Shown here: positions 8,542-39,782 of the stretch, piece by piece
How the letters are laid out: every line of letters begins with the position of its first letter
How positions within the stretch are numbered: the stretch's first letter is position 1
Source: an uncultured Bacteroidales bacterium
Lineage (GTDB): Bacteria > Bacteroidota > Bacteroidia > Bacteroidales > Paludibacteraceae
DNA length: 43,456 nt
Direction of reading: 5' to 3'
Assembly: GCA_900321005.1 (NCBI GenBank)
Contig: ONUF01000014.1
Location: 1-43,456 of the forward strand
Notes under the pieces: generated by a model
Seen by the model: the letters and a program-made list of their open reading frames with translations, nothing else
Told to the model about the DNA's origin: nothing
Database searches by the model: none
Made by a program: the position numbers and the translations under genes

Positions 8542-8566
8542 GTGTAATGTGTAAGGTGTAAGGTTA
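8542..8566 (-). repeat. 7-base array between ftsY and aspA
   Basis: On the forward strand: GTGTAAT (8542-8548), GTGTAAG (8549-8555), GTGTAAG (8556-8562), then GTTA. Read leftward it begins at the ftsY stop codon TAA (8566-8564). Confidence 0.8.
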
Positions 8567-15258: not shown

Positions 15259-15289
15259 TCAGTTTTCAGTTTTCAGTTTTCAGTTTTCA
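15259..15289 (-). repeat. 7-base array filling the whole SDR-ligase gap
   Basis: Read leftward, the SDR stop TGA starts the first unit. Four perfect TGAAAAC units plus TGA then lead straight into the ligase ATG. The 28-base gap is exactly 4 times 7. Confidence 0.92.
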
Positions 15290-16015
15290 AATAGATGCGC
15301 ATCCGTCTACGCCCAAAATATGTCCGGAAATATAACTTGCGCGGTCGGAAGCCAGGAATGCACATGCGTTTGCGATGTCTTCCGGTGTGCCGAGACGACC
15401 CAAAGCGATTCGACTGATACGCTCATCTATCTTCTCTCCATTGGCTTCGTACAGTTCTGCAAACCGCTCGGTCTTGACGATACCCGGTGCCACCGCATTG
15501 ACACGGATACCCTGCGGCGCCAGTTCTTTGGCGGCAGACTTGGTGAGGGCGATGATGGCCCCTTTGGTGGCAGAGTAGGCTACCTGCCCCGGAGAACCCA
15601 GCACGGCGGTCACCGAAGCGATGTTGACGATACTGCCTCCACCATTGCGCGCCATGAGTCGGCTGACGAGTTGGATGAGTTCCAATACGGCGATGACGTT
15701 TATGCGGAACATGAGTTCGGTCTCGTCGCGCGTGATCATACCGATCTTGCGGTTGAAGACCACGCCGGCATTGTTGACCAGCACATCAATGCGTCCGGCT
15801 TCTTTGAAGACCTGCATCATAGAAGCTTTGACCGCTGCGGCGTCTGTGATGTCAAACACGAGCGGATGAATGCGCTCGTCATCGCTCATAAACTCCTGAC
15901 GGTCGCACGCATACACGATAGCGCCGTCTTCTGCAAAGTGACGTGCGATCTCTTTCCCGATACCCTGTGCTGCACCTGTGATGATGCAGACTTTATTTTC
16001 AAGAAACTTTTCCAT
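15287..16015 (-). CDS. Short-chain dehydrogenase/reductase, FabG-like (first of two)
   Basis: NAD(P)-dependent Rossmann reductase of 242 residues. TGAAQGIG is the cofactor motif, NNAG the structural motif, and the catalytic Ser-Tyr-Lys sit in NIASVT and YSATK. FabG-type proteins reduce beta-ketoacyl-ACP to the 3-hydroxy form, which fits a cassette with a ketosynthase and ACPs. A sugar-oxidoreductase role cannot be excluded. It ends at the 7-base array before the ligase and begins 1 base after the next SDR stop. Confidence 0.9.
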   Translation of the reverse strand: MEKFLENKVCIITGAAQGIGKEIARHFAEDGAIVYACDRQEFMSDDERIHPLVFDITDAAAVKASMMQVFKEAGRIDVLVNNAGVVFNRKIGMITRDETELMFRINVIAVLELIQLVSRLMARNGGGSIVNIASVTAVLGSPGQVAYSATKGAIIALTKSAAKELAPQGIRVNAVAPGIVKTERFAELYEANGEKIDERISRIALGRLGTPEDIANACAFLASDRASYISGHILGVDGCASI

Positions 16016-16016
16016 T

Positions 16017-16763
16017 TTATACTAATGTTCGTCCTCCATCAATTATGAGGCTGGTTCCCGTTACCCATTTAGCGGCATCAGAGAGGAGATACAAAGCGGC
16101 ATACGCCACTTCCTCCGGGTGTCCATAACGGCGTAACGGATATTTTGCGATATCTTTCTCTATATCCTCTTGGGACATGGTTTGATTTTGCAGCAAATTG
16201 GTTTCTATACGTCCGGGGCAAATAGTGTTGCAGCGAATTTTCTTTGTCGCGAACTCCAGTGCCGCATACTTGGCAAAACTATTGAGAGCGCTCTTCGAAC
16301 TACCATAGAGCGAAAGGGCCGTTGCCGTATTACCATTGCCGGAGACGGAAGAAATGAATACGAGCGAGGCTTCCGTATTCAACTTGCGTTTTTTAGCGAG
16401 CGTTTTGGTAAGCATCACCGGCGCGGTATAGTTTGTCGCGAAGATCGTTTGTATATCCTTTTCCGAGAGCACTTGGATGGGTTTGAGCATACTTATACCC
16501 GCCGCAAAAACCACACCGTCCAAAGGCGGCAATTGTTCTACCAAGGTGTTAATGGCTTCTTCGTTTGTGAGATCAGCGACAATGATTTGATGCCCGTCTC
16601 CTTCCATGGCCGCAAGTGTCTCGCGCAGGCGCGCCTCGTCGCGCGCGTTTAAAAAAACAACCGCGCCCATCTTGGAACACTCGATAGCAACAGCCCGACC
16701 GATACCTGAAGAGGCTCCGGTCACCAAAATCGTCTTACCTTGTAATGAAAAAGGATGGTACAT
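16017..16763 (-). CDS. Short-chain dehydrogenase/reductase (second of two)
   Basis: 248-residue SDR with TGASSGIG, ISSVSG and YGSSK. The middle and C-terminus differ from its neighbour, so the pair is not a recent duplication. Two reductases in one acyl cassette could reduce two different keto groups, as would be needed for a dihydroxyacyl chain. The start overlaps the stop of the ACP gene upstream by one base. Confidence 0.9.
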   Translation of the reverse strand: MYHPFSLQGKTILVTGASSGIGRAVAIECSKMGAVVFLNARDEARLRETLAAMEGDGHQIIVADLTNEEAINTLVEQLPPLDGVVFAAGISMLKPIQVLSEKDIQTIFATNYTAPVMLTKTLAKKRKLNTEASLVFISSVSGNGNTATALSLYGSSKSALNSFAKYAALEFATKKIRCNTICPGRIETNLLQNQTMSQEDIEKDIAKYPLRRYGHPEEVAYAALYLLSDAAKWVTGTSLIIDGGRTLV

Positions 16764-16987
16764 TATAACTTACTTTGGACTAAATCGAACAATTCCTGTA
16801 TTGTCTGCGTCTTGCGCATTTCTTCCGGCGGAAGAACAACGCCATACTCGTCATCGACCATGGTAATGACGAGCAACGCTACCAATGAACTCCATTCTTC
16901 CAATTCGCGGAAACGGGTCTCCGGTTTGAGCAGAGCGATATCCATATCCTCAAACTGCTCTGCCAATAACTCAATAAATTTCTCCAT
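16763..16987 (-). CDS. Acyl carrier protein (74 aa), second copy
   Basis: Small acidic protein with the carrier-site context EEWSSLVALLVI, where SSL replaces the usual DSL; the modified residue is probably Ser34. The loss of the Asp before the Ser is uncommon but occurs in specialised carriers. It is encoded between the PglD-like acyltransferase and the second reductase, with one-base overlaps, which suggests it presents the finished acyl group. Confidence 0.85.
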   Translation of the reverse strand: MEKFIELLAEQFEDMDIALLKPETRFRELEEWSSLVALLVITMVDDEYGVVLPPEEMRKTQTIQELFDLVQSKL

Positions 16988-17616
16988 TATATTAGTCTTT
17001 TTGCGGGATTTCCCATCACGGTCGTCCCTGATTTAACTCTTTTTATCACAAAACTGCATGCCGCCACGCGACTGTTACTCTCCACGACTACCTTATGATT
17101 AATCATGGCACTCGTGTGGATATCCGCTTCATCTTCCACAATCGTTCCGCCTACGAGCGTCACATGCGTATCGATTCTATTCCAGTCGCCTATACGGCTA
17201 TCGTGACCGATAACGGTATAGGACTGAATCAGATTATATTTGCCCACATGAGCGTCTGCGCCAATGGTTGTGAATGCGCCAACGACCGTTCCTTCGCCTA
17301 TTACCACATTGGTTCCCAAGCGTGCGGTCTTATGAATCATTGTTAAGAAAGAACCGCCTCGGGCAATTATCTCCTCCATGCATTTGCGACGGGCACTTCC
17401 GCCGATAGAGCATACAAACACCTCGTCCGGTGCCGGTTGATAGCCGCTGATTGTACCTAACATGGGAGGGTAGTTCTCAAAGCCCTCTAAGGCTGCCGTG
17501 TTGTCGTCAAGAAATCCCTTTATCTCATACTCTACGCCATAACCTATACTCTCGCGAGCCATGTCGTAGAATGTTCTGCCCATACCTCCGGCGCCTATGA
17601 TAATAAGTTGTTTCAT
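16987..17616 (-). CDS. PglD/NeuD-like left-handed beta-helix acyltransferase
   Basis: Acyltransferase of the NeuD/PglD type, which N- or O-acylates sugars. The N-terminal domain (about 1-75) has the nucleotide-sugar fold start IIGAGGMGRTF. The C-terminal hexapeptide-repeat domain (about 85-205) holds IGHDSRIGDW, whose His matches the PglD active-site His, and ends TVMGNPAKRLI. Classical PglD uses acetyl-CoA. Being first in a transcript with two ACPs, it may use an acyl-ACP instead. It has its own promoter (17639-17670). Confidence 0.88.
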   Translation of the reverse strand: MKQLIIIGAGGMGRTFYDMARESIGYGVEYEIKGFLDDNTAALEGFENYPPMLGTISGYQPAPDEVFVCSIGGSARRKCMEEIIARGGSFLTMIHKTARLGTNVVIGEGTVVGAFTTIGADAHVGKYNLIQSYTVIGHDSRIGDWNRIDTHVTLVGGTIVEDEADIHTSAMINHKVVVESNSRVAACSFVIKRVKSGTTVMGNPAKRLI

Positions 17617-17638
17617 CGTTAATGAATTAAAAGGTGTG

Positions 17639-17670
17639 CAAAATTACAAAATATTTTGCATTCATGCAAA
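17639..17670 (-). promoter_or_regulatory. Internal promoter for the acyl-sugar cassette
   Basis: Reverse-strand TTTG (17670-17667), 20 bases, TAATTTTG (17646-17639), about 25 bases before the PglD-like start. The -33 lies in the hairpin at 17648-17676. Confidence 0.7.
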
Positions 17671-17676
17671 TATTTT
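17648..17676 (-). terminator. AT-rich hairpin after the GT4 gene
   Basis: Arms 17664-17676 and 17648-17661 pair with a single bulged base around a 2-base loop, starting within the GT4 stop codon. The T-run is poor, so termination is probably partial. It overlaps the internal promoter. Confidence 0.5.
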
Positions 17677-18823
17677 ATTGTTTATTTTTTATTACTTCTT
17701 CAAATATTCGGGTTAATTGCTTGGCAATGACTTCGGAAGAGAAGCGCGCCTGGCATTCATCAGCAATAGCCTGCCGGTCATAATTCTGATGATACTCGTA
17801 CATGTGTCGGATCGCGGCAGCTAAAGCCTTCACATCATCAACCGGTACTAATAATCCGTTTTTCTCATTCACAAACTCTTCCGGCCCTCCGCAAGGAGTT
17901 GCGATGACCGGCAAACCGCAAGCCAGCGCCTCGATATAAACCACACCGAATGTCTCCATGCGCGACGGGAGCACAAATACGTCCGAATGATTCAACCAAC
18001 GGATGATTTGTTCTGAGGTTTGCTGCCCCACCAAGCGGATGTTTGGAGTCAGATGATGCTTTTCGATTTGTTTTTGAAGTTCGCAGTGTTGTTTCCCGGC
18101 TCCGATAATATGTAATTCCCATTTATCTTTGGGCAGTTGCAATGTGGCAAACGCTTCTATGAGTAAATCAAATCCTTTTCGAAGAATGAGACTTCCCGTG
18201 GCTATGAACCGTACTTTATCGTCATTATTTTTATGCGGAAGATAGATAAACTTCTTACCCACCATATTATAAACAACCGTGGACTCTATATCAAAATGTT
18301 CTTTGATCGCTTTTTGGGCTGCTTTGGACACGGTAAGCAACTTATCTACTTTGGGGTACGTGTCTTCACCCATCTTTTGAATAGATGGAGCTACAACAGG
18401 TTTGTTGATTTCCGACCAATGTTCGATAGCGACGACAGGTGCGTTAAGGTCTTTTAAATAACGTACTGCTTTATGCGTGTTGAATAAATAATGCGAATAT
18501 ATAACATCCGGTTTTTCTTCATTTGCAGCAATGACTTTTGCCATTTTATGCCACACCCAAGCGTTGAACACATCCGTGACATAACCGCCCAACAGCCCGA
18601 CAATAGCCCCGGGACATACAAAGAGGTTATATATATGAATGCCGTTAATATATTTTGTTGTCAGGCCTATTTTTCGCCAATAGAAACGGAACCGGGTATC
18701 GACAGATGCAATAATAACGTTATGCCCCAAAGAAGCTAATGCTTTAGCTTGATCAAACTCAAAACTTCCCCACTGAGGGTCGCGTTTTGAAGGGGTTCCT
18801 CTTGCTATGATAAGAATATTCAT
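17675..18823 (-). CDS. GT4 family glycosyltransferase
   Basis: Retaining GT-B glycosyltransferase of 382 residues. The donor-site block RMETFGVVYIEALACGLPVIAT carries the E-x7-E motif. The N-terminus has the acceptor-domain start IIARGTPSKRDPQWGSFEF. It adds one sugar of the repeat unit on the cytosolic side. Its start overlaps the polymerase stop by one base. Donor and acceptor are unknown. Confidence 0.9.
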   Translation of the reverse strand: MNILIIARGTPSKRDPQWGSFEFDQAKALASLGHNVIIASVDTRFRFYWRKIGLTTKYINGIHIYNLFVCPGAIVGLLGGYVTDVFNAWVWHKMAKVIAANEEKPDVIYSHYLFNTHKAVRYLKDLNAPVVAIEHWSEINKPVVAPSIQKMGEDTYPKVDKLLTVSKAAQKAIKEHFDIESTVVYNMVGKKFIYLPHKNNDDKVRFIATGSLILRKGFDLLIEAFATLQLPKDKWELHIIGAGKQHCELQKQIEKHHLTPNIRLVGQQTSEQIIRWLNHSDVFVLPSRMETFGVVYIEALACGLPVIATPCGGPEEFVNEKNGLLVPVDDVKALAAAIRHMYEYHQNYDRQAIADECQARFSSEVIAKQLTRIFEEVIKNKQ

Positions 18824-20004
18824 TAGTTCAAGTTATTGATCATTTCTTCGCGCAGATCATCCTTTAAAGGATGTAAATCTGTCTGAAAATAGGACACGTA
18901 TGCGCCTGTGTTATTTTTGCAGTTATAGATAAAAGCATTAAATACAACAAATAAGAAAAGTATCATAAAAGCATACCTCGCTAAATGTGATATACTTTGT
19001 TTGCGCGTCTTGTAAAAGTAGCATAGAGCATACGCCATCACAATAAATTGGGTGTGCGTGAAATATACAATCAAACGTTGCAAGAGCATACTGCCCAGGA
19101 AGAAGTATCCTAAACAAATGCCGATAATGTACATGTCGTAAAGAATATTTAACAAATCGCTTTGTATATACTCTTTGATATGTTTGCTATTTAATATGAT
19201 GACTATGTTTGCGGCGAGTGTGAAAATACGTGTAATACCTATCTTGCTATTAACAATCATTTCGTCCGCTACATCAATATAATCTTCGTAACCCATTAAG
19301 ATGATTAGGTTGTCAAACATGTGCAATATTTCCTGCCATCGGGTAACAAAAGATAATGCGAAACAAGCCAATACAGCAATTAATTCGGCAACAGGCCGAT
19401 TAAGAATACCTTTGCGTTTGATCCATATAAAGTATAAAGGGAAAAGTAATATGGCGGATTTATGAAAAGCCAATGCCAACAAGCAACAAATCCAGTATTT
19501 AATCAGTTTGTTGTCGCGTATATATTGTAGCGAATAGAGAAAGAAACAGAAGGCAACAACATGTCTGATTATATTCATAAAACTGGTTATACCAATAGTC
19601 GTAAAAAGTAATGTGGCATAGATATATACTAACACGTCTCCTTCGTCTTTGAATGTTTTGTACAGCAAGAAGACTTCCAAGAACGCCATAGCGGAGAATA
19701 AAACATATACCGGAGCATCAAAGTAATGACATAGGTATAGTAATAACGTAAATCCCGGTTCATATCGCTCGCTTTCCCAAATTTCCATAAATGAACCATA
19801 GTACTCAGTTATTTCGTATACTTCCACATAGTTGTTATAATCAACTCCTACACCATAACGCAGCCCAAAGACCAAAGTAAACAATATAATAGGCAACCAT
19901 GCCCAAAGTTTTGCATTTCTGGAAGAACCTTGAGAACGGTATGCACCATAGCACATCATCAGAGCCAGTAGTGAATATACAACTATTGATTGGATATATA
20001 GCAT
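18823..20004 (-). CDS. EpsG-family polysaccharide polymerase (Wzy-like)
   Basis: Multi-pass inner-membrane protein of 393 residues with about ten hydrophobic segments. The EpsG-family sequence FGLRYGVGVDYNNY is present near residue 50. Such proteins join lipid-linked repeat units into a polymer on the periplasmic side. The AT-rich composition compared with flanking genes is normal for wzy genes and points to horizontal exchange. Confidence 0.85.
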   Translation of the reverse strand: MLYIQSIVVYSLLALMMCYGAYRSQGSSRNAKLWAWLPIILFTLVFGLRYGVGVDYNNYVEVYEITEYYGSFMEIWESERYEPGFTLLLYLCHYFDAPVYVLFSAMAFLEVFLLYKTFKDEGDVLVYIYATLLFTTIGITSFMNIIRHVVAFCFFLYSLQYIRDNKLIKYWICCLLALAFHKSAILLFPLYFIWIKRKGILNRPVAELIAVLACFALSFVTRWQEILHMFDNLIILMGYEDYIDVADEMIVNSKIGITRIFTLAANIVIILNSKHIKEYIQSDLLNILYDMYIIGICLGYFFLGSMLLQRLIVYFTHTQFIVMAYALCYFYKTRKQSISHLARYAFMILFLFVVFNAFIYNCKNNTGAYVSYFQTDLHPLKDDLREEMINNLN

Positions 20005-20020
20005 AATCAGGACTATAGTT

Positions 20021-20995
20021 TTATCGGTTTAAATGGACGAGATAGTAATAGTATATAAATAAAGGTGTAGATAATCCTAAAATATATGACTCAAAACGGA
20101 AATAGGGGTTCGTACAATGACGCATGAGCGTAACGATATCTGTTTTGTGGTCATTAATAAATTGCATGTAGCTCTTTTTATGAGAGGTATCACCGATGTG
20201 CTTGATAACCATAAGAGAATTACTGAGCAATTGTCCTATAATAGTACCAAAAGCAGGCATACATTCCATTTCTTTTACTTCTTGTTCAATGAATCTTAAA
20301 TGCCTTTGTAATATAAGCGACATGTCAACAACTCGTTTTATTGAGACATTGTGCATGATGGAAGAAGCATTACATAATTCATAAAAATATATAGGAGAAG
20401 TATAATAACTCACTCGCTCTGCGAAATAATAGGCACGCGGCGTGAATTCCATATCTTCGTGATAAATCTTTGGATAAAAAGTCAATTGGTGCGATAGTAA
20501 GAACTCCCGTTTATATATTGTAAACTGAGCCGGGTATTGGAATTGGATACGAGAAAGTACATCTTTTCCTTTCCATACGGAAAAGTCAAGCGAGGAATAA
20601 TCAAAACGTAGTGCCTGTTTACCATTGGAAACATTGATTGCAGAAATATGTAGTGCATCAAGATGGTTATTCCGGATACGTTCGGACAGTGCTTTTAGAC
20701 AATTTGTCTCAATCCAATCATCAGAATCCACAAACCACACATAATCACCCTTTGCCAGCCTTAATCCAGCATTGCGGGCTTCCGATAAACCTTTATTTTC
20801 TTGCTCAAAGACTACAATGTTAGCATGTGATTGTGCATACGTTTGTACAATCTTCATACTATTGTCGGGAGTCCCGTCATTAACGACAATGATCTCATAG
20901 TCGCTCATCGGTATGTCTTGTTGCACACATGATGCAAGACAGCGCCCGATATAGCGTTCTACATTATAAACGGGTATGACAATAGATAGTATCAT
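20021..20995 (-). CDS. GT2 family glycosyltransferase
   Basis: Inverting GT-A transferase of 324 residues, with SIVIPVYNVERYI at the start, VVNDGTPDNS and the metal-binding WFVDSDDW near residue 90. It overlaps the upstream gene by 4 bases (ATGA-type). It presumably adds a sugar to the lipid-linked unit; the substrate is unknown. Confidence 0.9.
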   Translation of the reverse strand: MILSIVIPVYNVERYIGRCLASCVQQDIPMSDYEIIVVNDGTPDNSMKIVQTYAQSHANIVVFEQENKGLSEARNAGLRLAKGDYVWFVDSDDWIETNCLKALSERIRNNHLDALHISAINVSNGKQALRFDYSSLDFSVWKGKDVLSRIQFQYPAQFTIYKREFLLSHQLTFYPKIYHEDMEFTPRAYYFAERVSYYTSPIYFYELCNASSIMHNVSIKRVVDMSLILQRHLRFIEQEVKEMECMPAFGTIIGQLLSNSLMVIKHIGDTSHKKSYMQFINDHKTDIVTLMRHCTNPYFRFESYILGLSTPLFIYYYYLVHLNR

Positions 20996-23687: not shown

Positions 23688-23692
23688 GGATT

Positions 23693-27224: not shown

Positions 27225-27234
27225 ACATTTGTGT

Positions 27235-27951: not shown

Positions 27952-27978
27952 GTGTTTCGTTTCTTCTGAATAGGAGTA

Positions 27979-29343: not shown

Positions 29344-30582
29344 TTAGTCTCGCTTGAAAATATCGCGTGTATATACCTTGTCCTTCACGTCGTCCAGACT
29401 GCTGTCATAACGGTTGGCAATGATAGCTTGGCTGCGAAGTTTGAATTGTTCCAAGTCGTTCACTACTTCGCTACCGAAGAAGGTGGTGCCGTTCTCTAAA
29501 GTCGGCTCGAAGATAATGACCTGTGCACCCTTGGCCTTCACGCGCTTCATGATGCCTTGGATGGACGACTGACGGAAATTATCGCTGTTGGACTTCATTG
29601 TCAGGCGGTACACGCCGATAGTGCAGTCATGTTCCTGCGCCGCATCAAAATCGCCCTTGTGGTAGTAGTCGTAGTATCCGGCTTTCGCCAACACGCGGTC
29701 GGCAATGAAATCCTTACGCGTGCGGTTCGATTCTACGATAGCGCCGATGAGGTTCTCCGGCACATCCTGGTAGTTTGCCAAGAGTTGCTTGGTGTCTTTC
29801 GGCAGACAATACCCGCCATACCCGAACGAAGGATTGTTGTAGTGCGTGCCGATACGCGGATCGAGACACACGCCGTCAATAATGGCTTTCGTGTCCAGCC
29901 CTTTCATCTCCGCATAGGTGTCCAACTCATTGAAGAAACTCACGCGCAGTGCCAGGTAGGTATTGGCGAACAGTTTGACCGCCTCGGCTTCCGTCAGGCC
30001 CATTATGCGCACTTCCACGTCTTTCTTGATAGCTCCTTCTTTGAGCAGGTTCGCAAATGTCTCGGCTGCGGCTACCTGCTGTCGGTCCGTCAGATCCGCA
30101 CCGACGATGATGCGGCTCGGATACAGGTTATCCTCGAGGGCCTTGCTCTCACGCAGGAACTCCGGTGAGAAAAGAATGTGCTCGCAGTGGTATTTCTCCC
30201 GCACGGATTTGGTGTAGCCTACGGGGATGGTCGATTTGATGACCATGGTCGCATTCGGGTTGACGCGCAACACCGTCTCGATGACATTCTCCACCGCAGA
30301 GGTGTCGAAATAATTGCGACGACTGTCATAGTTCGTTGGCGCCGCAATTACCACCAACTCCGCGTCCCTGTACGCCGCTTCGGCATCCAAGGTCGCGGTA
30401 AGATGCAAGTCTTTTTCCGCGAGATACTTCTCGATATACTCATCCTGAATAGGCGACTGCCGACGATTGATCATCGCTACCTTCTCCGGCACGATATCCA
30501 CCGCCGTCACCTCATGATGTTGGGACAATAGGGTAGCAATGCTGAGGCCCACATACCCCGTTCCTGCAACTGCTATGCGCAT
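29344..30582 (-). CDS. UDP-glucose 6-dehydrogenase family
   Basis: NAD-dependent four-electron oxidation of a UDP-hexose to a UDP-uronic acid, most often UDP-glucose to UDP-glucuronate. At 412 residues all three regions are there: Rossmann [13 protein letters not shown], the central helix, and [15 protein letters not shown] with the catalytic Cys, then a C-terminal nucleotide-binding domain ([16 protein letters not shown]). Substrate could also be UDP-GlcNAc or UDP-ManNAc; the short form favours UDP-glucose. It is preceded by a 7-base array. Confidence 0.9.
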
Positions 30583-30589
30583 AAAATCA

Positions 30590-30617
30590 CCAATTACAAA
30601 TTACCAATTACCAATTA
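30590..30617 (-). repeat. 7-base array starting at a stop codon
   Basis: Forward-strand units CCAATTA (30590), CAAATTA (30597), CCAATTA (30604), CCAATTA (30611). Read leftward the first unit, TAATTGG, begins with the TAA stop of the half-size dehydrogenase. The array leads to within 7 bases of the next ATG (30582). Confidence 0.9.
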
Positions 30618-31370
30618 GATGTGTTCCTCTACACCACGGAAGTGGACATTGAGTTCATGCAGGTGCTCCAGCAGCGTACCGAGCGAAGTGCCTTTGGTCA
30701 TCTCAGCGAACGCATTCACGTCTTTCGGGAAACATTTTCCGCCATAACCGAATTTACCATCGGGTCCCGGGACGTAGGTGTGCGTGTCGTTGATATAACC
30801 CGACAGCAGTACACCCGTGTGTACCTTACGCCAATCCGCGCCCATCTTCTCGCAGTACTCCTTGCAGGCATTGAAATACGTCACTTTGTAAGCGCCGAAG
30901 ACATTGTGCATGTACTTCGTCAACTCGGCCTCGAGCGGACTCATGACGGTGAATTTCTTACCCACGAAGATCTTCGTCAGCAGCTCCTGTGCGCCGGTGA
31001 AGACCATGGTCTGCTTGTTAAAATCCTCGATGAACGTGCGCTCTGTCAAGAACTCCGGCATGTAATACACATGGTGTCCGGTCTCTTTGGACAGGCGCTC
31101 GCTCGTGCCCGGCAGAATGGTCGTACGAACGAAGACCGGTACATCCGGCAGGTTCTTGATCAGTTCCGTCATCAGGCGCAAGTCCTGCGTGCCGTCTTCT
31201 TCAGTCGGCACATGAATCTGCAAGAACGCTACATCGACTCCACTCAGGTCATCGTTGTAACCCTTGTACGGGTCACTGATGAACAACTTACACTCAGGGT
31301 TGTTGTTCTCCAACCAATTTTTGAGGGCTCCTCCTACGAAGCCACATCCGATAATTCCAACGTTAATCAT
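30615..31370 (-). CDS. Half-size UDP-sugar dehydrogenase-like protein (251 aa)
   Basis: First gene of the long operon. It has the Rossmann start IIGCGFVGGAL, TTILPGTS, PEFLTERTF, a central helix (ELTKYMHNVFGAYK) and FGYGGKCFPKDVNAF with the catalytic Cys. It stops about 20 residues later, so the C-terminal UDP-binding domain found in full-length enzymes (and in its neighbour) is missing. No frameshift is visible, as the array and next gene follow at once. It may be a specialised reductase or a partner of the full-length enzyme. Activity is unproven. Confidence 0.8.
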   Translation of the reverse strand: MINVGIIGCGFVGGALKNWLENNNPECKLFISDPYKGYNDDLSGVDVAFLQIHVPTEEDGTQDLRLMTELIKNLPDVPVFVRTTILPGTSERLSKETGHHVYYMPEFLTERTFIEDFNKQTMVFTGAQELLTKIFVGKKFTVMSPLEAELTKYMHNVFGAYKVTYFNACKEYCEKMGADWRKVHTGVLLSGYINDTHTYVPGPDGKFGYGGKCFPKDVNAFAEMTKGTSLGTLLEHLHELNVHFRGVEEHI

Positions 31371-31412
31371 GTTTGTATAATGTATTTTAAATCAATTTTT
31401 TAAAAAAGCCCG

Positions 31413-31443
31413 CAAAGATACAACATTTTTTTTATATGTGCAA
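31413..31443 (-). promoter_or_regulatory. Main promoter of the leftward polysaccharide operon
   Basis: Reverse-strand TTG (31443-31441), 20 bases, TATCTTTG (31420-31413), leaving a leader of about 35-40 bases. No invertible repeats flank it, and no UpxY-type antiterminator gene follows. Confidence 0.75.
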
Positions 31444-31524
31444 GTGCGCGCGTACATTTCTTGAAAAAAAAGCATGTATGTGTAATTTTTTCATTTTTTC
31501 TTTCCGCCTTTCATTATTTTTTGC

Positions 31525-31532
31525 TACCTTTG
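31525..31532 (+). promoter_or_regulatory. Promoter -7 element of the DUF2723 gene
   Basis: TACCTTTG, about 49 bases before the ATG at 31581. The -33 position 20 bases upstream reads TTTC, a weaker match. This element lies inside the longer reading frame from 31461 and so supports the later start. Confidence 0.65.
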
Positions 31533-31580
31533 CAGCCGATTTTGCCTAAATACGGCCTAATAACAAAAAACAACGATAAA

Positions 31581-34500: not shown

Positions 34501-34646
34501 ATCGTCGTCAACGCCAAGTGATGGAATCGACCACCGGTCGCCAGGCTGCCATCTTAAGTTATGTGCTCCAGACCTGCGAGCGCTTCGGCCAATCGGAATT
34601 TGTGGACAAATACTATCCGGATTACGCTGCTTATGTTAACGATTAA
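31581..34646 (+). CDS. DUF2723 multi-pass membrane protein (glycosyltransferase-like)
   Basis: 1,021-residue protein typical of Bacteroidota. The N-terminal DUF2723 region resembles polyprenol-dependent mannosyltransferases: TMEPTASFWDCGEFISSAWKL followed by GHPPGAPFFMLMGHFF and about ten membrane helices to residue 300. More helices follow near 530-650. A large soluble part (about 660-1021) holds SNGDNDTFPLWYNQEVE and a TPR-like C-terminus. The substrate is not established here; a role in glycan transfer to surface or secreted proteins is plausible. The start at 31581 follows the promoter at 31525. The CobW-type gene overlaps its end by 14 bases. Confidence 0.9.
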   Translation: MKHFKLWNTLCGWLVFVIAAATYLLTMEPTASFWDCGEFISSAWKLDVGHPPGAPFFMLMGHFFSLFASDTAHVAMCVNALSALASAFTILFLFWTITALAKKLVQPDELWKGIALLGAGTIGALAYTFSDTFWFSAVEGEVYASSSLFTAVVFWLILKWDEQADEEGSDKWLILIAYLMGLSIGVHLLNLLTIPAIGLVYYFRRYAFSWKGLIYAFLASCLVLLVVLYGIIPGFPTLIGWFELAFVNGLGCPFNTGMWVCLILTVGLLVWAIIYTKKRSDIEYAENQGKNLWRWLNTGVLMLTVILIGYSSYAALVIRSNADTPMDQNSPDNVFSLKYYLNREQYGDRPLFYGQTYNAPVELRIEGNMCVPVEKKGHAQYAPAPKVEGEKDHYVITGYKTDYQYMKQFCMLFPRMYSSQGSHVSAYKEWANIKGRRIRYEYCGQQKTEYCPTFGENLRFFFRYQVNFMYWRYFMWNFVGRQNDLQSYGDITKGNWISGISFIDNAMLGDQDLLPTELKENKGHNVYYFLPLLLGIIGIVWQCGKRNEKGEGEGWKNFTLTFLLFFLTGLAIVLYLNQTPYQPRERDYAYAGSFYAFCIWIGLGVLALVDWINSALKSESGKACVALVASLLCLGVPALMAQQNWDDHDRSQRYSCRDFGANYLKSCETQAILFSNGDNDTFPLWYNQEVEEVGTDIRVCNLSYLQTDWYIAQMKRPYYDSKALPISWEYKDYMPGANEIARVDNRLGQPISVEKAFNFLRSDDPRTKTREGDNYLPSDQLYVETPDGEQIMFQKKRMYTRSQMMIMEMLSTNKWERPMYFCATVGNDYYLGLEPYMELTGLTYQITPTRSRDGQPRVNTEKMYENMMHKFQYGNMNIPGIYIDENLMRMCRTHRMMFAQLAEELIRENQRDKALEVLDFSEEQLPGYNIPYDYTSASMAQMYFLLHQDEKALAIMDVVANTCVEYLRFAQSLDRRQRQVMESTTGRQAAILSYVLQTCERFGQSEFVDKYYPDYAAYVND

Positions 34647-35847
34647 TAAAATACCGGTCTTGCTGCTCACGGGTTATCTCGGGAGCGGTAAGACCACGCT
34701 TTTGAACCGCATCCTGACGAATACCAAAGGCATTCGTTTTGCGGTCATTGTCAATGATATCGGCGAAGTCAATATCGACGCTTCGCTCATCCAGCAGGGC
34801 GGGGTGGTAAACCAGAATGACGACAGTCTTGTGGCCCTCCAAAACGGCTGTATCTGCTGCTCGCTGAAGATGGACCTGATCCAACAACTCCATGATTTGT
34901 GTGCGCAGAAAGCCTTCGATTACATCGTCATCGAGGCCTCGGGTATTTGTGAACCCGCACCGATCGCCCAGACCCTTTGCAGTTATGCCCAGATGGTGCC
35001 GCAGTTTGCCCAAGACGGACTGCCCGTTCTGGATTGTATCTGCGCCGTAGTAGACGCGCTGCGTCTGAGGGATGAGTTCCATGGGGGCGATGCTTTGGCG
35101 CATTATGTGCCCAAAGAAGAGGACTTGGAGGCGTTGGTCATCGAGCAAATCGAGTTCTGTAACCTCATCCTGCTCAACAAAGCCGCCGAGGTCACACCCG
35201 ACGAGTTGGCGCATATCAAATCCATCATCCGCGCTATCCAACCCAAGGCGGAGATCATCGAGACGAACTACTGCGATGTGGACCTCGACAAGCTGCTCAA
35301 TACCCACCTCTTTGACTTCGACCGCACCGCTACGTCGGCGACATGGATTCAGGAAGTCGAAGACGCGCATCACCATGAGCATCATCACCACGATGACGAC
35401 GATGATGAGGTGTCCCCCGATGAAACGGGGGAAACCCTAGACGGAAAGGGGCATGACCATGAAGGTCATGATCACCTCGCGGAGTTCGGTATTGACACCT
35501 ATGTATATTACGCGCGAAAACCTTTCGACCTCGGGCTCTTCGATGAGTTCGTCGCGGCGCACTGGCCGAAGAACGTGCTGCGTTGCAAAGGAATGTGCTA
35601 TTTTGCCGAAGAATACGACATGTGCTACCTCTTCGAGCAGGCCGGCAAACAGTTTAACCTGCGCAAAGCCGGTGAGTGGTTTGCTACCATGCCCAAAGAA
35701 GAACTCATGCAACTCATGGCGGATGATCCGCAGCTGCGCAAAGACTGGGATGACCAATACGGAGACCGTATGCAGAAACTGGTCTTCATCGGTCAGCACC
35801 TCGATAAGGCTGCCCTGAAAGCGGCTCTGGATAACTGCCTGCAGTAA
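34633..35847 (+). CDS. CobW/ZNG1-type G3E GTPase with His-rich loop
   Basis: Metal-chaperone GTPase of 404 residues. GYLGSGKTTLL (Walker A) and the metal-binding NGCICCSL (CxCC) are present. A His/Asp-rich loop (about residues 243-277, HHHEHHHHDDDDDE, then GHDHEGHDH) separates the GTPase from the CobW C-terminal domain. Such proteins deliver zinc or cobalt to client enzymes. The start is the ATG at 34633, because the upstream frame lies within the DUF2723 gene. The loop codons include a perfect 7-base-pair hairpin (35413-35432). It converges with the O-methyltransferase 6 bases away, with no clear terminator. Confidence 0.9.
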   Translation: MLTINKIPVLLLTGYLGSGKTTLLNRILTNTKGIRFAVIVNDIGEVNIDASLIQQGGVVNQNDDSLVALQNGCICCSLKMDLIQQLHDLCAQKAFDYIVIEASGICEPAPIAQTLCSYAQMVPQFAQDGLPVLDCICAVVDALRLRDEFHGGDALAHYVPKEEDLEALVIEQIEFCNLILLNKAAEVTPDELAHIKSIIRAIQPKAEIIETNYCDVDLDKLLNTHLFDFDRTATSATWIQEVEDAHHHEHHHHDDDDDEVSPDETGETLDGKGHDHEGHDHLAEFGIDTYVYYARKPFDLGLFDEFVAAHWPKNVLRCKGMCYFAEEYDMCYLFEQAGKQFNLRKAGEWFATMPKEELMQLMADDPQLRKDWDDQYGDRMQKLVFIGQHLDKAALKAALDNCLQ

Positions 35848-35853
35848 AACTGA

Positions 35854-36510
35854 CTACTTGATCTTCCTGATCATCGTCAGTCCGTCACGCAAAGGGAGGA
35901 TGACCTGCTCAAAGCGGTCGTCCTCTTTTACTTTATCGTTGAAGGCTCTGAGCCCTAAGGTCTGTTTGTCCTTGTCGTACGCCGGATCGATGATATGTCC
36001 GTCCCAGAGCGTGTTGTCCGCTAATATAAATCCGCCAACCGGCACGAGCGGATACACCAGATCCAGGTACGCGCAGTACTCCCGCTTGTCGGCGTCGATA
36101 AAGACAAGGTCGTAAAGCGCTTCGCTGTTTATTGCTTCGCGTTTATTGCCTTCGGCGTTTAGGACTTCTTTGCAATCACCAATGCGCAATTCTATCCGCT
36201 CGCATAGAGGTGAGCGCGATAAATTGCGTCGTATTGTCTCTTCGAGTTCATCATTATGCTCGATGGTCACCATTTTCCCGTCTTCTGCCAGCCCCTCGGC
36301 CAGGCAAAGCGCAGAATAACCGGTGAACGTCCCGAGTTCCAAGATCCGCTTCGGACGGATCATGTGACTGATCATACTCAGCACGCGCCCTTGCACGTGC
36401 CCGCTCAGCATATGCGGATTTAAAATATGGACATGCGTGTCGCGCGTAATAGCCTCCAAAACGGCGTTTTCGGGGCTTGAATGCGCAGAAATATACTCGT
36501 CAAGTATCAT
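35854..36510 (-). CDS. SAM-dependent O-methyltransferase (class I, caffeoyl-CoA/YrrM-like)
   Basis: 218-residue Rossmann methyltransferase. ILELGTFTGYSALCLAEGL is the SAM motif, VTIEHNDE follows, and LVFIDADKREYC gives the metal-binding Asp of the family. Start at 36510, directly after its promoter, instead of 36552. Between motif II and the DAD motif the protein has an extra loop (NAEGNKREAINSEALYD) encoded by a 14-16-base repeat at 36119-36161. Substrate unknown. It is divergent from the Lrp-type regulator gene and shares its promoter region, so it may be a target of that regulator. Confidence 0.88.
   Translation of the reverse strand: MILDEYISAHSSPENAVLEAITRDTHVHILNPHMLSGHVQGRVLSMISHMIRPKRILELGTFTGYSALCLAEGLAEDGKMVTIEHNDELEETIRRNLSRSPLCERIELRIGDCKEVLNAEGNKREAINSEALYDLVFIDADKREYCAYLDLVYPLVPVGGFILADNTLWDGHIIDPAYDKDKQTLGLRAFNDKVKEDDRFEQVILPLRDGLTMIRKIK
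36119..36161 (-). repeat. 14-16-base repeat inside the O-methyltransferase gene
   Basis: Three related units on the forward strand: GCTTCGCTGTTTA (36119-36131), TTGCTTCGCGTTTA (36132-36145) and TTGCCTTCGGCGTTTA (36146-36161). They encode an extra loop and keep the frame. Confidence 0.65.
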
Positions 36511-36529
36511 AATGTTACAGATTTTGCGA

Positions 36530-36561
36530 CAAAAGTACAAAAAAATTTGCATATATCCAAA
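36530..36561 (-). promoter_or_regulatory. O-methyltransferase promoter
   Basis: Reverse-strand TTTG (36561-36558), 20 bases, TACTTTTG (36537-36530), about 20 bases before the ATG at 36510. It is interleaved with the Lrp-type gene promoter. Confidence 0.78.
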
Positions 36562-36577
36562 AAAAAATGTACCTTTG
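36546..36577 (+). promoter_or_regulatory. Lrp-type regulator promoter
   Basis: TTTG (36546-36549), 20 bases, TACCTTTG (36570-36577). Its -33 lies in the spacer of the opposite promoter and the other way round, so both cannot easily be bound by polymerase at the same time. Confidence 0.78.
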
Positions 36578-36606
36578 CGCTCAAATTAAATCATTTTAAC
36601 AAAATA

Positions 36607-37065
36607 ATGGAAAAAATTGACGAATTAGATCGCAAAATCCTCAAGATTATTACGAAGAGTGCACGTATCCCGTTCAAGGATGTAGCGGAACAGTGTGGAG
36701 TGAGTCGCGCGGCGGTACATCAGCGCGTGCAGAAGATGTTTGACAACGGCGTCATCACCGGCTCCAGTTACCATGTGCAGCCGAAGATGTTAGGCTACCA
36801 GCTCTGCGTCTATATCGGTATCACGATGGAGAAAGCGTCTATGTACAACCAGGTGATTTCTGCGCTGAACGAGATTCCCGAGGTAGTGGAAGCCCAATAT
36901 ACCTTAGGCGCTTTCGGTATCCTCATCAAGGTCTATGCCCGCGATAACGAGCACTTGTTGCATATCCTGAATACGAAGATTCAGACGATCCCGGGTGTGG
37001 CGGATACCACGACGCTCACCGCCCTCGCGCAACCTATCTATCGTCAACTTCCTATAGAAATCTGA
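36607..37065 (+). CDS. Lrp/AsnC family transcriptional regulator
   Basis: 152-residue regulator: N-terminal winged helix-turn-helix (DELDRKILKIITKSARIPFKDVAE, recognition helix at VSRAAVHQRV) and C-terminal RAM domain (from about residue 70) that binds amino acids and sets the oligomeric state. The start at 36607 follows the promoter; the long upstream frame is rejected. The divergent interleaved promoter suggests autoregulation and control of the O-methyltransferase. A run of 7-base repeats begins at its stop codon. Confidence 0.92.
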   Translation: MEKIDELDRKILKIITKSARIPFKDVAEQCGVSRAAVHQRVQKMFDNGVITGSSYHVQPKMLGYQLCVYIGITMEKASMYNQVISALNEIPEVVEAQYTLGAFGILIKVYARDNEHLLHILNTKIQTIPGVADTTTLTALAQPIYRQLPIEI

Positions 37066-37118
37066 AAACTGATTACTGATTACTGATTACTGATTACTGA
37101 TTACTGATTACTGATTAC
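37063..37118 (+). repeat. 7-base array between the regulator gene and trpS
   Basis: The stop TGA opens the first unit TGAAAAC (37063-37069), followed by seven perfect TGATTAC units (37070-37118), then TAAC and the trpS ATG. Nearly the whole gap is repeat. Because 7 is not a multiple of 3, the TGA falls in all three frames. Confidence 0.95.
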
Positions 37119-37122
37119 TAAC

Positions 37123-38112
37123 ATGGAAAGAGTCATTAGTGGAATACGCCCTACGGGAAACCTGCACCTCGGTAATTATTTCGGGGCGGTGAAGAGTTTT
37201 GTGAAGATGCAAGAGGAGTACGACTGCATGTTCTTTATTGCCGATTGGCATTCGCTCACGACCCATCCGACACCGGAAAATATACGTAACTCCGTGAAGA
37301 CGATCCTCAGCGAATACCTCGCTTGCGGTATCGATCCCGAGAAGGCGCCAATCTATGTGCAGAGCGACGTGAAGCAGGTGCTCGAACTCTATCTGTACCT
37401 CAATATGAACGCCTATTTGGGCGAACTCGAGCGCGTCACGTCCTTCAAGGAGAAAGTGCGCAAACAACCCGATAACGTCAACGCAGGACTGCTCACCTAT
37501 CCCTGTCTTATGGCGGCGGATATCCTCATGCACAAGGCCGATAAAGTGCCCGTCGGAAAGGACCAGGAGCAGAACATGGAAATGGCGCGACTCTTCGCCC
37601 GTAGATTCAACAGAATCTATAATGTCGAGTATTTCAAAGAACCCGCCTCCTTCCATTTTGCCGACAAAGCGGTCAAAGTACCGGGTCTCGACGGAACGGG
37701 AAAGATGGGTAAATCCGAAGGCAACTGCCTCTATCTCTGCGATGACGAGAAGACCGTCACCAAGAAGATCATGCGGGCGGTGACCGATCAGGGACCTACC
37801 CAACTCAACCAGGAGAAACCCGAAGTCATCCAGAACCTCTTCACGCTCTGCGATTTGCTCTGCGGACCCGAGGCGACGGAGTACTACAACGACCTCTATA
37901 ACCGCATGGAGATCCGCTACGGCGACATGAAGAAGCAGATGGCGGCGGACGCCAATAAACTGCTGGCGCCGATCCGCGAACGCATCCTTGCGTACTCCTC
38001 CGACGATGCCTTCCTCGAGCGCGTCATGCGCGACGGAGCCGAGAAAGCCGCTGCCCGCGCAGAGAAAACCATCGAAGAGGTCCGCGAGATCATCGGTTTT
38101 AGAAAAATCTAA
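37123..38112 (+). CDS. trpS: Tryptophanyl-tRNA synthetase
   Basis: Class I aminoacyl-tRNA synthetase of 329 residues that charges tRNA-Trp. The HIGH-type motif is GNLHLGNYFG (near residue 12) and the KMSKS-type motif is KMGKSEGN (near residue 193). RPTGNLHLG at the N-terminus is characteristic of TrpRS. The length is the bacterial norm. Translation starts 4 bases after the TGATTAC array; the next gene begins in an 8-base array that starts at its stop. Confidence 0.96.
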   Translation: MERVISGIRPTGNLHLGNYFGAVKSFVKMQEEYDCMFFIADWHSLTTHPTPENIRNSVKTILSEYLACGIDPEKAPIYVQSDVKQVLELYLYLNMNAYLGELERVTSFKEKVRKQPDNVNAGLLTYPCLMAADILMHKADKVPVGKDQEQNMEMARLFARRFNRIYNVEYFKEPASFHFADKAVKVPGLDGTGKMGKSEGNCLYLCDDEKTVTKKIMRAVTDQGPTQLNQEKPEVIQNLFTLCDLLCGPEATEYYNDLYNRMEIRYGDMKKQMAADANKLLAPIRERILAYSSDDAFLERVMRDGAEKAAARAEKTIEEVREIIGFRKI

Positions 38113-38117
38113 TCGGT

Positions 38118-38149
38118 CGGAATACCGGAATATCGATATACCGATATGT
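38118..38149 (+). repeat. 8-base array between trpS and the lipoprotein gene
   Basis: CGGAATAC, CGGAATAT, CGATATAC, CGATATGT (38118-38149). The last unit contains the ATG start codon at 38146, so the start codon itself is part of the array. Confidence 0.85.
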
Positions 38150-38397
38150 CGAAAAAACTCTACATATTATTTGTAACGGCGGCCTTTTTCGCCGCCTGCT
38201 CGACGGCGAACAGCATCCCCATCGACGATGCCTACTATTCGCCTGAGATAGAGTCGCCCGCGCCCGCAACTACTTCCGCGCCTAAAACTGCAGCGCCCTC
38301 TAGTGCTTCTAGTGCTTCTAGTGCTTCTAGTCAATCTAGTTCCTCCATCGAGTACCTCAATGTCCAAGACACCACCGTAACCATCCGCATCAAATGA
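38146..38397 (+). CDS. Small putative lipoprotein (83 aa) with Ser/Ala repeat
   Basis: Residues 1-17 form a lipoprotein signal ending FFAAC, so Cys18 would be lipidated. The mature part is Pro/Ala/Ser-rich, with SAS repeated three times (codons in 9-base repeats at 38301-38340), and ends in a short beta-like stretch (YLNVQDTTVTIRIK). No family is recognised. Its stop overlaps the start of the barrel gene (ATGA), so the two are probably made together; it may be an accessory of that outer-membrane protein. Confidence 0.7.
   Translation: MSKKLYILFVTAAFFAACSTANSIPIDDAYYSPEIESPAPATTSAPKTAAPSSASSASSASSQSSSSIEYLNVQDTTVTIRIK
38301..38340 (+). repeat. 9-base in-frame array in the lipoprotein gene
   Basis: TAGTGCTTC three times, then TAGTCAATC and TAGT, encoding Ser-Ala-Ser units. 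A 9-base unit can change copy number without frameshift. Confidence 0.85.
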
Positions 38398-39740
38398 AAC
38401 GAGCCCTTTACATAGCATTTTTGGTCTGTACTCTGTATTCTGTACTCTGTACTCCAATTCTCGCCCAAGATGTCCAGCGTCTCGGCGAGCGGTCGATCAT
38501 GGGCACGGCGCGTTATGTGGGCATGGGCGGTGCGATGACGGCTGTCGGCGGAGATCCCTCGGCGGCGCTCGACAACCCGGCCGGACTGGGCTTGTACCGC
38601 CATCACGAAGTGCTGCTCACGCTCGATGATGCGATAGATAACATCTACCAGCGCGGCACGAACCTCAGGGGCAAAACGAACCTCTTCATGGCGCCGCAGG
38701 CATCTATCGTCATTCATATACCGACCGGCGCAGTGGACGGGGTAGGCGTACAGGCGCATAACTTCCTCTTCTCGTACCACCGCGTGCAGTCCTATAACCG
38801 CTTCTATGACGTGCAAGGCCTCGAAGGCATCCCTTCGCTCGGCGAACTCTTTGCGTCCACCGGCGTGGACCTCGGTATCCCGTATTGTACGGAGCGTATG
38901 AATGCCACCAACGCGATCAGGTTGCGCGAGTGGGGCTATGTCAATAACTATTCCTTCGACTGGGCGATGAATATCGCGCATAAGTGGTATGTGGGCCTCG
39001 GGCTGCGGATCCACTCTTTCTCGTTCAGCGGCGAAGCGGAGTATGACGAGACCTTCGATATCTATAACGCCCAACAGCAGGTGTGGTATAACAACAACTG
39101 GACTTCGTTGCTCTTCAACGGCGCGGGAGTCAGTATGTCGGCGGGGCTTATCTGTCGCCCGCTGTCCTGGCTGCGTCTGGGCTTCGGTCTCGAGACACCG
39201 TCTGTCGGCAAGATGCGCCGCAGTACCAACGGCGACCTCCAGGCGCGCACGGACTCCGTGCGGAACACCAGTTGGGCGACGGATAAGGAGTTCACGGACT
39301 ACCATCAGCCGTTGCATATCAGTACCTCGGTCGCTTTTCAGGTCAACTATTACGCCATGATCGCGCTCCAGTATGACTACCGTCATCAGTCGGGCGCCCT
39401 CGATAATCACGGTTTCCGCATGGGACTGGAAATCATCCCTGTGCCGGGACTGTATATCAATGCCGGCTATGCCTACGAGAGCGCTTTCTCGCGCTCGAAT
39501 AATGTCCGGCATGTGGACCCGACTTTGCACCGCCAGGATGCCTATTTCCAGCGCCTCAGGTGGTCGCAGTATGTCTCGGGAGGACTGGGCTACAGAGGAC
39601 AATATTTCGTGGTGCAAGCGGCCTACCAGTACCGCTGGCAGCGTATGCAGCTCTATGCCCACGAGAATGCCGTGGATAACCCCTACGATCTCAATTCCGC
39701 CACCCACCGCATCGTTGTAACCCTGGGCTGGCGGCGGTAA
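38394..39740 (+). CDS. Outer-membrane beta-barrel protein (OMPP1/FadL-like)
   Basis: 448-residue outer-membrane protein. The signal peptide (about 1-24) ends ILAQ. The mature N-terminus has the family pattern ARYVGMGGAMTAVGGDPSAA, with DNPAGLGLY. The rest is alternating amphipathic strands with aromatic belts and ends in VVTLGWRR, a typical barrel end. Such proteins pass hydrophobic compounds or serve as surface anchors; the substrate here is unknown. Part of the signal peptide (VCTLYSVLCTP) is encoded by four 7-base repeats (38425-38452). Confidence 0.85.
   Translation: MKRALYIAFLVCTLYSVLCTPILAQDVQRLGERSIMGTARYVGMGGAMTAVGGDPSAALDNPAGLGLYRHHEVLLTLDDAIDNIYQRGTNLRGKTNLFMAPQASIVIHIPTGAVDGVGVQAHNFLFSYHRVQSYNRFYDVQGLEGIPSLGELFASTGVDLGIPYCTERMNATNAIRLREWGYVNNYSFDWAMNIAHKWYVGLGLRIHSFSFSGEAEYDETFDIYNAQQQVWYNNNWTSLLFNGAGVSMSAGLICRPLSWLRLGFGLETPSVGKMRRSTNGDLQARTDSVRNTSWATDKEFTDYHQPLHISTSVAFQVNYYAMIALQYDYRHQSGALDNHGFRMGLEIIPVPGLYINAGYAYESAFSRSNNVRHVDPTLHRQDAYFQRLRWSQYVSGGLGYRGQYFVVQAAYQYRWQRMQLYAHENAVDNPYDLNSATHRIVVTLGWRR
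38425..38452 (+). repeat. 7-base array inside a signal-peptide coding region
   Basis: TCTGTAC, TCTGTAT, TCTGTAC, TCTGTAC in the first 20 codons of the barrel gene. A change of one unit would shift the frame and abolish the protein, so this could be a phase-variable switch (inference). Confidence 0.85.
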
Positions 39741-39743
39741 TAA

Positions 39744-39782
39744 CTTACAATTTAATGGCTTAACAGTTTAACAGCTTAACAT
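39744..39782 (+). repeat. 8-base-periodic array after the barrel gene stop
   Basis: After TAATAA: CTTACAA, TTTAATGG, CTTAACAG, TTTAACAG, CTTAACAT. The last three units are near-identical. Confidence 0.7.

Follow-up and report, generated by a model that had tools for sequence, protein, structure and literature searches.

The DNA analysed here, hereafter the window, is the 43,456-nt forward strand (positions 1 to 43,456) of contig ONUF01000014.1 from an uncultured Bacteroidales bacterium of the Paludibacteraceae (GenBank assembly GCA_900321005.1). It carries tandem arrays of 7-base units, among them arrays that join the stop codon of one gene to the start codon of the next. On balance, we think it probable that such heptamer arrays spread through lineage-specific bursts of copying inside genomes and that purifying selection leaves them where they are harmless. 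This reading draws on patterns in the sequences themselves: families of array copies inside one genome, the near-absence of one such family from a sister genome, differences between orthologous junctions, rules of orientation and in-frame insertions into genes. From these we infer that copying is an ongoing process and that selection acts mainly in a purifying manner. Heptamer repeats have long been noted in scattered bacteria. Since array density in the material described here runs from zero to about one per 2 kb, junctions differ and sister genomes differ by a burst, individual events of array birth, copying and loss can be followed.

Within a draft genome of 2.12 Mb (G000), 78% complete, the window is contig C11. 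Its arrays were checked by direct reading, with Tandem Repeats Finder (TRF) and with a lag scorer (+1/-2 at lag p) run alongside 40 dinucleotide shuffles. Five period-7 arrays reach the score of at least 12 used as the cut-off for array counts, compared with 0.03 per shuffle. Four of these, near positions 15259, 30590, 37063 and 8542, had been reported in a first-pass annotation made from the sequence alone, and all are real by these checks. The anchoring it described also stands: the arrays at 15258 and 30585 begin on a stop codon, and that at 37057 holds the stop codon in register. The fifth, at 38425, had been overlooked. The 8-base arrays of that annotation fared less well, for three of them exceed the shuffles (3 versus 0.03 per shuffle) but score only 10-11, below a cut-off that misses weak and indel-broken arrays. 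A degenerate array proposed at 7048-7095 was rejected, neither TRF nor the lag scorer finding a 7- or 8-base array there.

Period 7 is ahead of every other period tested (4-15). A 643-kb sample of the window's own genome holds 95 period-7 arrays; five small contigs (C1-C5, 2.1-2.7 kb) that are entirely N do not enter the counts. Across 295,764 unmasked bases there are 46 arrays of period 7, none of periods 4-6, six of period 8, five of period 9 and 20 of period 14, the last count being taken as largely reflecting period 7. A first-order Markov copy of these bases (n=1) gave one period-7 array and zero at the other periods listed. The first-pass annotation had also proposed scanning relatives against chance, and period 7 is indeed enriched in the genus: 68 arrays in 389 kb from 20 species, unevenly spread (0-14 per stretch of 10.6-20 kb), versus four in 342 kb from 20 other families of the order, all four from two genomes. 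The relatives are drafts throughout, one genome per species, with 36 listed for the genus. By the lag scorer, period-7 arrays number zero in 50 kb of E. coli and zero in 63 kb of Prevotella oral taxon 299.

Arrays are 19-111 nt long (median 31 nt), and the 258 arrays of the genus fall into 110 unit classes, of which AATCACC, AAAGGTG, AAAAATT and AAAGTTG are the commonest. In a five-genome set of 224 arrays, 123 lie in gaps between co-directional genes, 85 in genes and 16 elsewhere. In the window's own genome, co-directional gaps (47.5 kb) hold 56 arrays, convergent and divergent gaps (20.7 kb) six and genes (565 kb) 33. Above-chance period-7 tandem arrays with such a non-coding bias belong to the heptamer simple-sequence repeat class (LSSR/STRR). 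A chance origin was rejected, as dinucleotide shuffles and Markov controls give about zero, and an assembly artefact is judged unlikely, the arrays being short and recurring in many separate genomes with conserved flanks.

Array families, orthologous junctions and insertions

The TGATTAC array at 37057 lies between a gene for an AsnC/Lrp-type regulator and one that we name TrpS, a putative tryptophanyl-tRNA synthetase. It has 33 further related places in its own genome. Copy counts for dispersed families are lower bounds, with 40 of up to 130 candidates scored in array-rich genomes; array queries gave 25 matches in G000, 85 in G035 and 46 in G006, the query included and some matches overlapping or on both strands. 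The first-pass statement that each locus has its own unit is therefore true inside the window but not genome-wide, where units recur in families. One G000 family, (AGTTGAR)n, with 25 matches (among them L017:6772-6862, L222, L223, L227 and L230), has some copies that carry a common non-repeat tail resembling AGAAGTCGTCTAG.

In G015, the family of the array at the TrpS junction occupies 33 separate places at E≤1e-8, itself included, whereas its sister G030 (a draft 86% complete, with eight of eight candidates scored) yielded one weak match (E=4.8e-4). More generally, identical units make up 3.07% of within-genome array pairs from different stretches versus 1.05% of pairs between genomes (permutation p 0.0005). 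Furthermore, non-periodic 18-mers are shared by 84 of 10,395 within-genome pairs versus 43 of 40,008 between genomes, a 7.5-fold difference to which longer paralogous repeats may contribute some G035 cases.

Orthologous junctions, defined through reciprocal best hits inside 20-kb stretches, differ widely in array content. At the AsnC-TrpS junction arrays were flagged in five of 19 species including the window, with units TGATTAC in the window, TAGGTTA in G003, GTTAGCC in G015, inverted TAATGAA/TTAATCA in G035 and a short TAATTTT in L073. The stop-start gap is 1-3 nt in L059, L060, L068, L070 and L071, and the other nine species have unflagged gaps of 5-141 nt, some of which come from doubtful gene calls. 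G032, outside the 19-species table, has a longer period-10/8 composite at this position. Over all junctions, 26 of 121 comparisons (at least 85% identity) found an array at the ortholog of an array junction, against a background of 94 of 356 for the orthologs of array-free junctions, both counted as ordered pairs. Arrays do not pick specially tight junctions, since the median gap in array-free orthologs of array junctions is 2 nt, the same as for array-free junctions.

Between G015 and G030, the closest pair, 31 net indels of at least 6 nt were counted over 20 kb of a partly non-homologous alignment. Eleven are flagged with an array (nine of period 7, one of period 8 and one of period 9) and 20 are unflagged. 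All 11 flagged indels are longer in G015; one is a 551-nt segment with the array at its edge, and one indel of the pair comprises 34 bp between a conserved TAAG and the ATG. The insertion boundaries are blurred because the two genomes are only 86% identical in aligned columns.

Arrays also enter coding sequence. Twenty-two in-gene arrays were compared and 15 had an ortholog; six of these 15 clearly represent in-frame insertions, each of about 7-12 aa, with three of them in one 1028-aa G029 protein and one each in L061, L066 and L073. An example is RLALNEQSPITNHQSDGLMVV versus RLADAQDGLMVV. A methyltransferase-like loop holds different heptamer arrays in L060/L065, L069 and L072. Array copies can thus be inserted into conserved proteins without shifting the frame and can alter the spacing of genes in operons, so that gene junctions and protein loops change rapidly in a way that looks neutral.

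Placement relative to stop and start codons

The first-pass annotation had inferred a process acting at gene ends. Placement bears this out in part: among the 123 arrays in co-directional gaps, 88 start from -14 to +10 nt of the upstream stop codon, 78 end no more than 12 nt before the start codon or past it, 59 span stop to start and 16 are anchored at neither. Nevertheless, the 85 arrays inside genes do not fit a process confined to gene ends, and just one of them lies within 6 nt of a gene end. Because gene calling relied on a home-made dicodon scorer, some starts and gap lengths are approximate, as with negative or long junction gaps.

Among the 88 stop-anchored arrays, 42 hold the stop codon in register with their unit, compared with 8.1 expected by random phase. 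Stop anchoring is partly forced, because a stop has to be provided by any array that replaces a gene end. However, among 17 arrays whose upstream gene keeps its C-terminus in relatives, eight are still in stop register (1.4 expected), and therefore the stop triplet may direct the array or serve as its seed.

Units with stops in the sense direction only outnumber those with antisense stops only by 43:4 among arrays containing the upstream stop. The ratio is 15:5 for arrays starting 0-20 nt after it and 7:4 for those starting further downstream (>20 nt). In-gene arrays have sense stops in 21% of cases and antisense stops in 60%. The window's TGATTAC family is forward at 14 of 16 classified places in co-directional gaps and reversed at eight of eight in genes; 25 of its 34 places were classified, and two short loci, two without a detected array and five beyond the range examined were skipped. 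Because the sense bias depends on stop overlap and the window family obeys this orientation rule, array placement appears to be mostly what selection tolerates, and stops within the unit seem to act chiefly as a survival filter.

Could the arrays instead be functional? As translation insulators or leaders they would be selected for stops in all frames and for a low-structure, A/T-rich leader ahead of the next start; MacGregor proposes binding sites for S1, Csp or Csr proteins (PMC4679880). The 14:2 forward orientation of the window family in gaps is in keeping with such a role, as are a sense stop in 84% of co-directional gap arrays (71%, standard deviation 3, after composition shuffling) and the 44 of 123 arrays that end 1-7 nt before a start codon. 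The same can be said of an A/T content of 0.72-0.76, by class, in gap arrays versus 0.60 in array-free gaps of G000. We nonetheless regard selection for this function as quite improbable: array position is not conserved between orthologous junctions, 85 of 224 arrays are inside genes, and the fading of the sense bias to 7:4 away from the stop weakens the case for stop codons as a conserved function. The first-pass suggestion that stops insulate adjacent genes thus survives chiefly in a residual sense bias of 22:9 (p 0.03) among arrays that do not contain the stop, which keeps the insulator idea alive.

Arrays are also found at convergent gene ends (L018:748-774, L060:8533-8554 and L070:9034-9063). 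One array can end both genes there because its unit has stops on both strands, as with GTTTAGC (TAG/TAA).

The proposed copying and its alternatives

Under the copying model that we favour, dispersed tandem repeats of heptamers, less often octamers, would be copied between places within a genome and would gain or lose entire units; a new copy would persist where it breaks nothing. In a tight operon gap the copy would settle between stop and start, usually in the orientation that has TAA, TGA or TAG in the unit, since the upstream stop codon is often covered by the array itself. In genes it would persist stop-free and in frame, at loops or signal peptides. Our guess is that copying proceeds by template switching or recombination aided by short matches such as the stop triplet. 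Loss of mismatch repair was rejected as a cause: the MutS_V domain, common to MutS and MutS2, was found in 60 of 61 genomes, the miss being G018 (54% complete), and a few genomes have only a weaker, MutS2-like score. A BLAST search of the repeat against plasmids gave no match, though BLAST masks simple repeats.

The main rival is independent local slippage during replication, a proposal of Mrazek 2007 as cited in PMC4679880 and PMC4692102. Each array would grow in place from a chance 7-base seed, period 7 would follow from polymerase mechanics, and placement between stop and start would be due to purifying selection. Slippage probably acts too. It accommodates the preference for period 7 over the other periods, the excess of stops in register (also where the C-terminus is kept) and hairpin copies with extra whole units in G015. 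As a full explanation it is possible but on the unlikely side, for it leaves unexplained the 32 further long copies of the G015 family against the one weak match in G030, the irregular 18-mers common to arrays, and the arrays in conserved genes whose orthologs are without the sequence. The first-pass annotation had allowed for either slippage or a templated process. A real process does make the arrays, but one of purely local slippage misses the repeated units, the sharing of irregular sequence and the burst.

Several observations besides the residual sense bias weigh against copying. Because most arrays are simple and short, independent slippage stays a candidate for any single array, and one junction fits local growth directly: L064 has ATTTGAAATCATAAT, and L065 a longer array with a similar string. 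Clustering of units by neighbourhood is absent in G000 (p 0.32) and G015 (p 0.45), though present in G035 (p 0.011). Nine of the 15 in-gene arrays with an ortholog are not clear insertions, being mixed cases, loops swapped without change of length or, as for window array 38425, comparisons in which the N-terminal part aligns unreliably. Cross-species alignments reach at least 90% identity in four cases, 4.4 kb in total, and these are free of indels of at least 4 nt, so that no array event was caught at strain-like distance. No target-site duplication, which together with terminal inverted repeats marks a MITE, was demonstrated at the 86% identity of G015 and G030. Finally, a copying enzyme is not evident. 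Y1_Tnp (PF01797) had no match in G006, G015 or G034, and RVT_1 (PF00078) none in G035 (97% complete), G003, G006, G032 or G034.

The last point bears on whether a dedicated enzyme, be it a RAYT, a reverse transcriptase or another transposase, moves heptamer hairpins in the manner of REPINs. The G015 copies are hairpins with heptamer arms and a modal length of 61 nt (13 of 30, motif-trimmed). Four of the 30 are longer by one or two whole units (68 and 75 nt), and lengths of 47 and 54 nt are in some cases due to motif-based trimming rather than unit loss. Their mean fold z is -3.6 versus mononucleotide shuffles, and by eye they have inverted-repeat-like ends, TAACWTTAGC. The hairpin is not proven by compensation, since 19 aligned copies show little covariation. 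In G035, modules of AATGAATAATGATTAATGAATAATGAATATCTC occur singly, in tandem and as inverted pairs, with a core of about 4-25 nt that varies between the sites read (L069:18879-18973, L277-L306). Hairpin pairs of the REPIN/BIME kind were found in these two families only.

Such inverted structures would suit an enzyme, yet we hold its involvement to be very unlikely. Within the searches made, which covered Y1_Tnp and RVT_1, the former matched weakly and partially once in G035 and once in G000 (drafts 78-97% complete), and the latter gave one match each in G015 and G000. The strong Y1_Tnp match in the genus is in G027, whose 20-kb stretch has one period-7 array. RAYT-driven REPs and reverse transcriptase-driven copying were accordingly rejected, their domains being without a match in several array-rich genomes. 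The window's strong arrays, moreover, are direct, with no inverted partner seen on reading.

A bolder form of the copying model is also conceivable, although we hold it to be unlikely. Selfish copying, free of transposase and reverse transcriptase, would use the TRA triplet of the stop codon as a landing register and favour stop-start junctions. Units would be species-specific and some hairpins would grow by whole heptamers, with Cyanobacteria, Beggiatoaceae and these Bacteroidales sharing the process and not the sequence.

Relation to known repeats and the arrays of the window

The arrays of the genus are a variant of known heptamer repeats, since MacGregor 2015 and Rehm 2015 describe the same kind with other units. 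A prior description of the genus-wide pattern was not found in searches of an openly licensed library. In MacGregor 2015 (PMC4679880), TAACTGA heptamers adjoin start codons, overlap stops and are reversed in open reading frames (ORFs). They occur in Cyanobacteria, Beggiatoaceae and five Bacteroidetes. One of the last is Paludibacter propionicigenes, which has two sets; as it belongs to the Bacteroidales, the first-pass belief that no Bacteroidales family at gene junctions had been described is overturned. In the same paper, some close relatives have shorter, array-free gaps and two Cyanothece strains differ mostly by 7-nt indels; one unit dominates the main genome, where related heptamers are rare, and Microcystis has a range of repeating heptamers. 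The likeness to our arrays, direct and 7-base, by starts, over stops and reversed in genes, is thus close. The present case differs in its diversity of unit classes, its species-specific burst and its in-frame inserts recognised by ortholog comparison. The window unit ACTGATT is one base from the TAACTGA class (ACTGATA), and TAACTGA is not the sole unit here.

Period 7 is also dominant in 84 cyanobacterial loci chosen because they hold an ACTGATW array, and there 31% of the other arrays have unit classes of the genus type versus 18% for shuffled units. Among the matches listed, named records with ACTGATW arrays come from Cyanobacteria, Parabeggiatoa, Bacteroidota, Planctomycetota, Chloroflexi and others. 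Cyanobacterial STRR heptamers were reportedly described by Elhai 2008, with tiny mobile elements, the small dispersed repeats (SDR) of 21-27 nt, embedded in heptamer arrays. Period 7 is common to those repeats and ours; the lineage differs.

The GGGNATC heptamers of Xanthomonas and Nostoc, in Rehm 2015 (PMC4692102), are dispersed, enriched in non-coding DNA and preferably placed between aligned ORFs, some over a stop. They form single arrays or inverted pairs, and 83% keep the same gene context in close relatives. Dispersal, preference for gaps and occasional stop overlap are shared with the arrays of the genus. However, the GGGNATC unit is G-rich and quadruplex-forming, whereas ours, judged from unit composition alone, are mostly A/T-rich; position is kept there, in contrast to the fast turnover seen here.

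REPINs are described in PMC3116915 as short, non-autonomous hairpins of two inverted repeats with many copies per genome. The G015 and G035 families resemble them in being multi-copy hairpins. Relative to that description they differ in that their arms are heptamer tracks, some with extra whole units, and in that no full-length RAYT match was found in the array-rich G000, G015, G035 and G006. Borg tandem repeats (PMC9879509) are likewise reported to evolve rapidly, arise independently and create new disordered protein regions; unlike ours, they belong to Archaea-associated extrachromosomal elements.

Table 1 Arrays of the window and the genes that flank them
Feature	Position	Strand	Details
Heptamer array, one CTGAAAA-like unit, then TGATTAC	37057..37119	+	fills the 57-nt gap from the AsnC/Lrp stop to the TrpS ATG
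Lrp/AsnC-type regulator	36481..37065	+	upstream of the 37057 array; PF01037, PF13404; start by the dicodon caller, 36607
Putative tryptophanyl-tRNA synthetase (TrpS)	37123..38112	+	downstream of the 37057 array; PF00579; match in 58/61 genomes
Heptamer array, TGAAAAC	15258..15289	-	4.6 copies, 100% match; from the short-chain dehydrogenase/reductase stop to the AMP-binding ATG
Short-chain dehydrogenase/reductase	15287..16015	-	upstream of the 15258 array; PF13561
AMP-binding enzyme	13948..15258	-	downstream of the 15258 array; PF00501
Heptamer array, TAATTGG	30585..30617	-	4.7 copies, 88%; from the stop to 2 nt before the next ATG
UDP-glucose/GDP-mannose dehydrogenase-family ORF	30615..31370	-	upstream of the 30585 array; partial N domain and central domain only
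UDP-glucose/GDP-mannose dehydrogenase	29344..30582	-	downstream of the 30585 array; profile match, all three domains
Heptamer array, ACCTTAC	8540..8564	-	starts within the stop codon; TRF 8542-8564, 3.3 copies, 93%
Heptamer array, TCTGTAC	38425..38454	+	near the start of ORF 38394-39740
Imperfect octamer array, ATACCGAT type	38118..38147	+	score 10; runs into the ATG at 38146
Imperfect octamer array	5587..5605	+	score 11; TRF 5587-5617; between a DHBP-synthase/GTP-cyclohydrolase-II gene and the next gene
Imperfect octamer array, GCTTAACA	39760..39781	+	score 11; TRF 39758-39781; after the stop of ORF 38394-39740

The arrays and flanking genes of the window are collected in Table 1. A search of the window and of L066 with Rfam at the gathering threshold gave no structured-RNA match. 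In the 37057 array, TGATTAC is present in 7.4 exact copies at 37068-37119, the upstream stop in register is TGA, and the array ends 3 nt before the next ATG. The name TrpS for the gene that follows is our own and provisional. PF00579 covers both W and Y synthetases, matching Klebsiella genes are annotated trpS, and the closest named TrpS match is in Prevotella oral taxon 299 (68%). The array at 15258-15289 has its first base on the stop codon and its last base 1 nt inside the next ATG. Seven orthologous junctions correspond to that of the 30585 array: the gap is 1 nt in L071, an AATTAAA-type array is present in L066, and L062 and L070 are flagged too, with longer gaps. The ACCTTAC array at 8540-8564 is a reversed GTGTAAG/TAATGTG-like unit. 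Octamer arrays of the CGAAATAT type stand directly after TrpS in L059 and L062, and similar strings are present in L070 and L073.

The array at 38425-38454 sits in a hydrophobic stretch that, by eye, looks like a signal peptide. Arrays of the TTTGTCC/TTTTGCC type lie 21 nt into ORFs of L068, L072 and L074. Those at L068:10496-10530, L072:11549-11573 and L074:10709-10740 and the window array have different units, lie near an ORF N-terminus and follow TrpS at a similar distance. Since the distance from array to gene end is 1286 nt in both the window and L072, one orthologous signal peptide may have been rebuilt repeatedly from repeats.

Two minor features complete the window. The partial dehydrogenase-family ORF at 30615-31370 sits directly upstream of a homologue having all three domains, and an exact 9-bp repeat, TCTAGTGCT, runs for 3.7 copies at 38299-38331 inside a small ORF (38146-38397).

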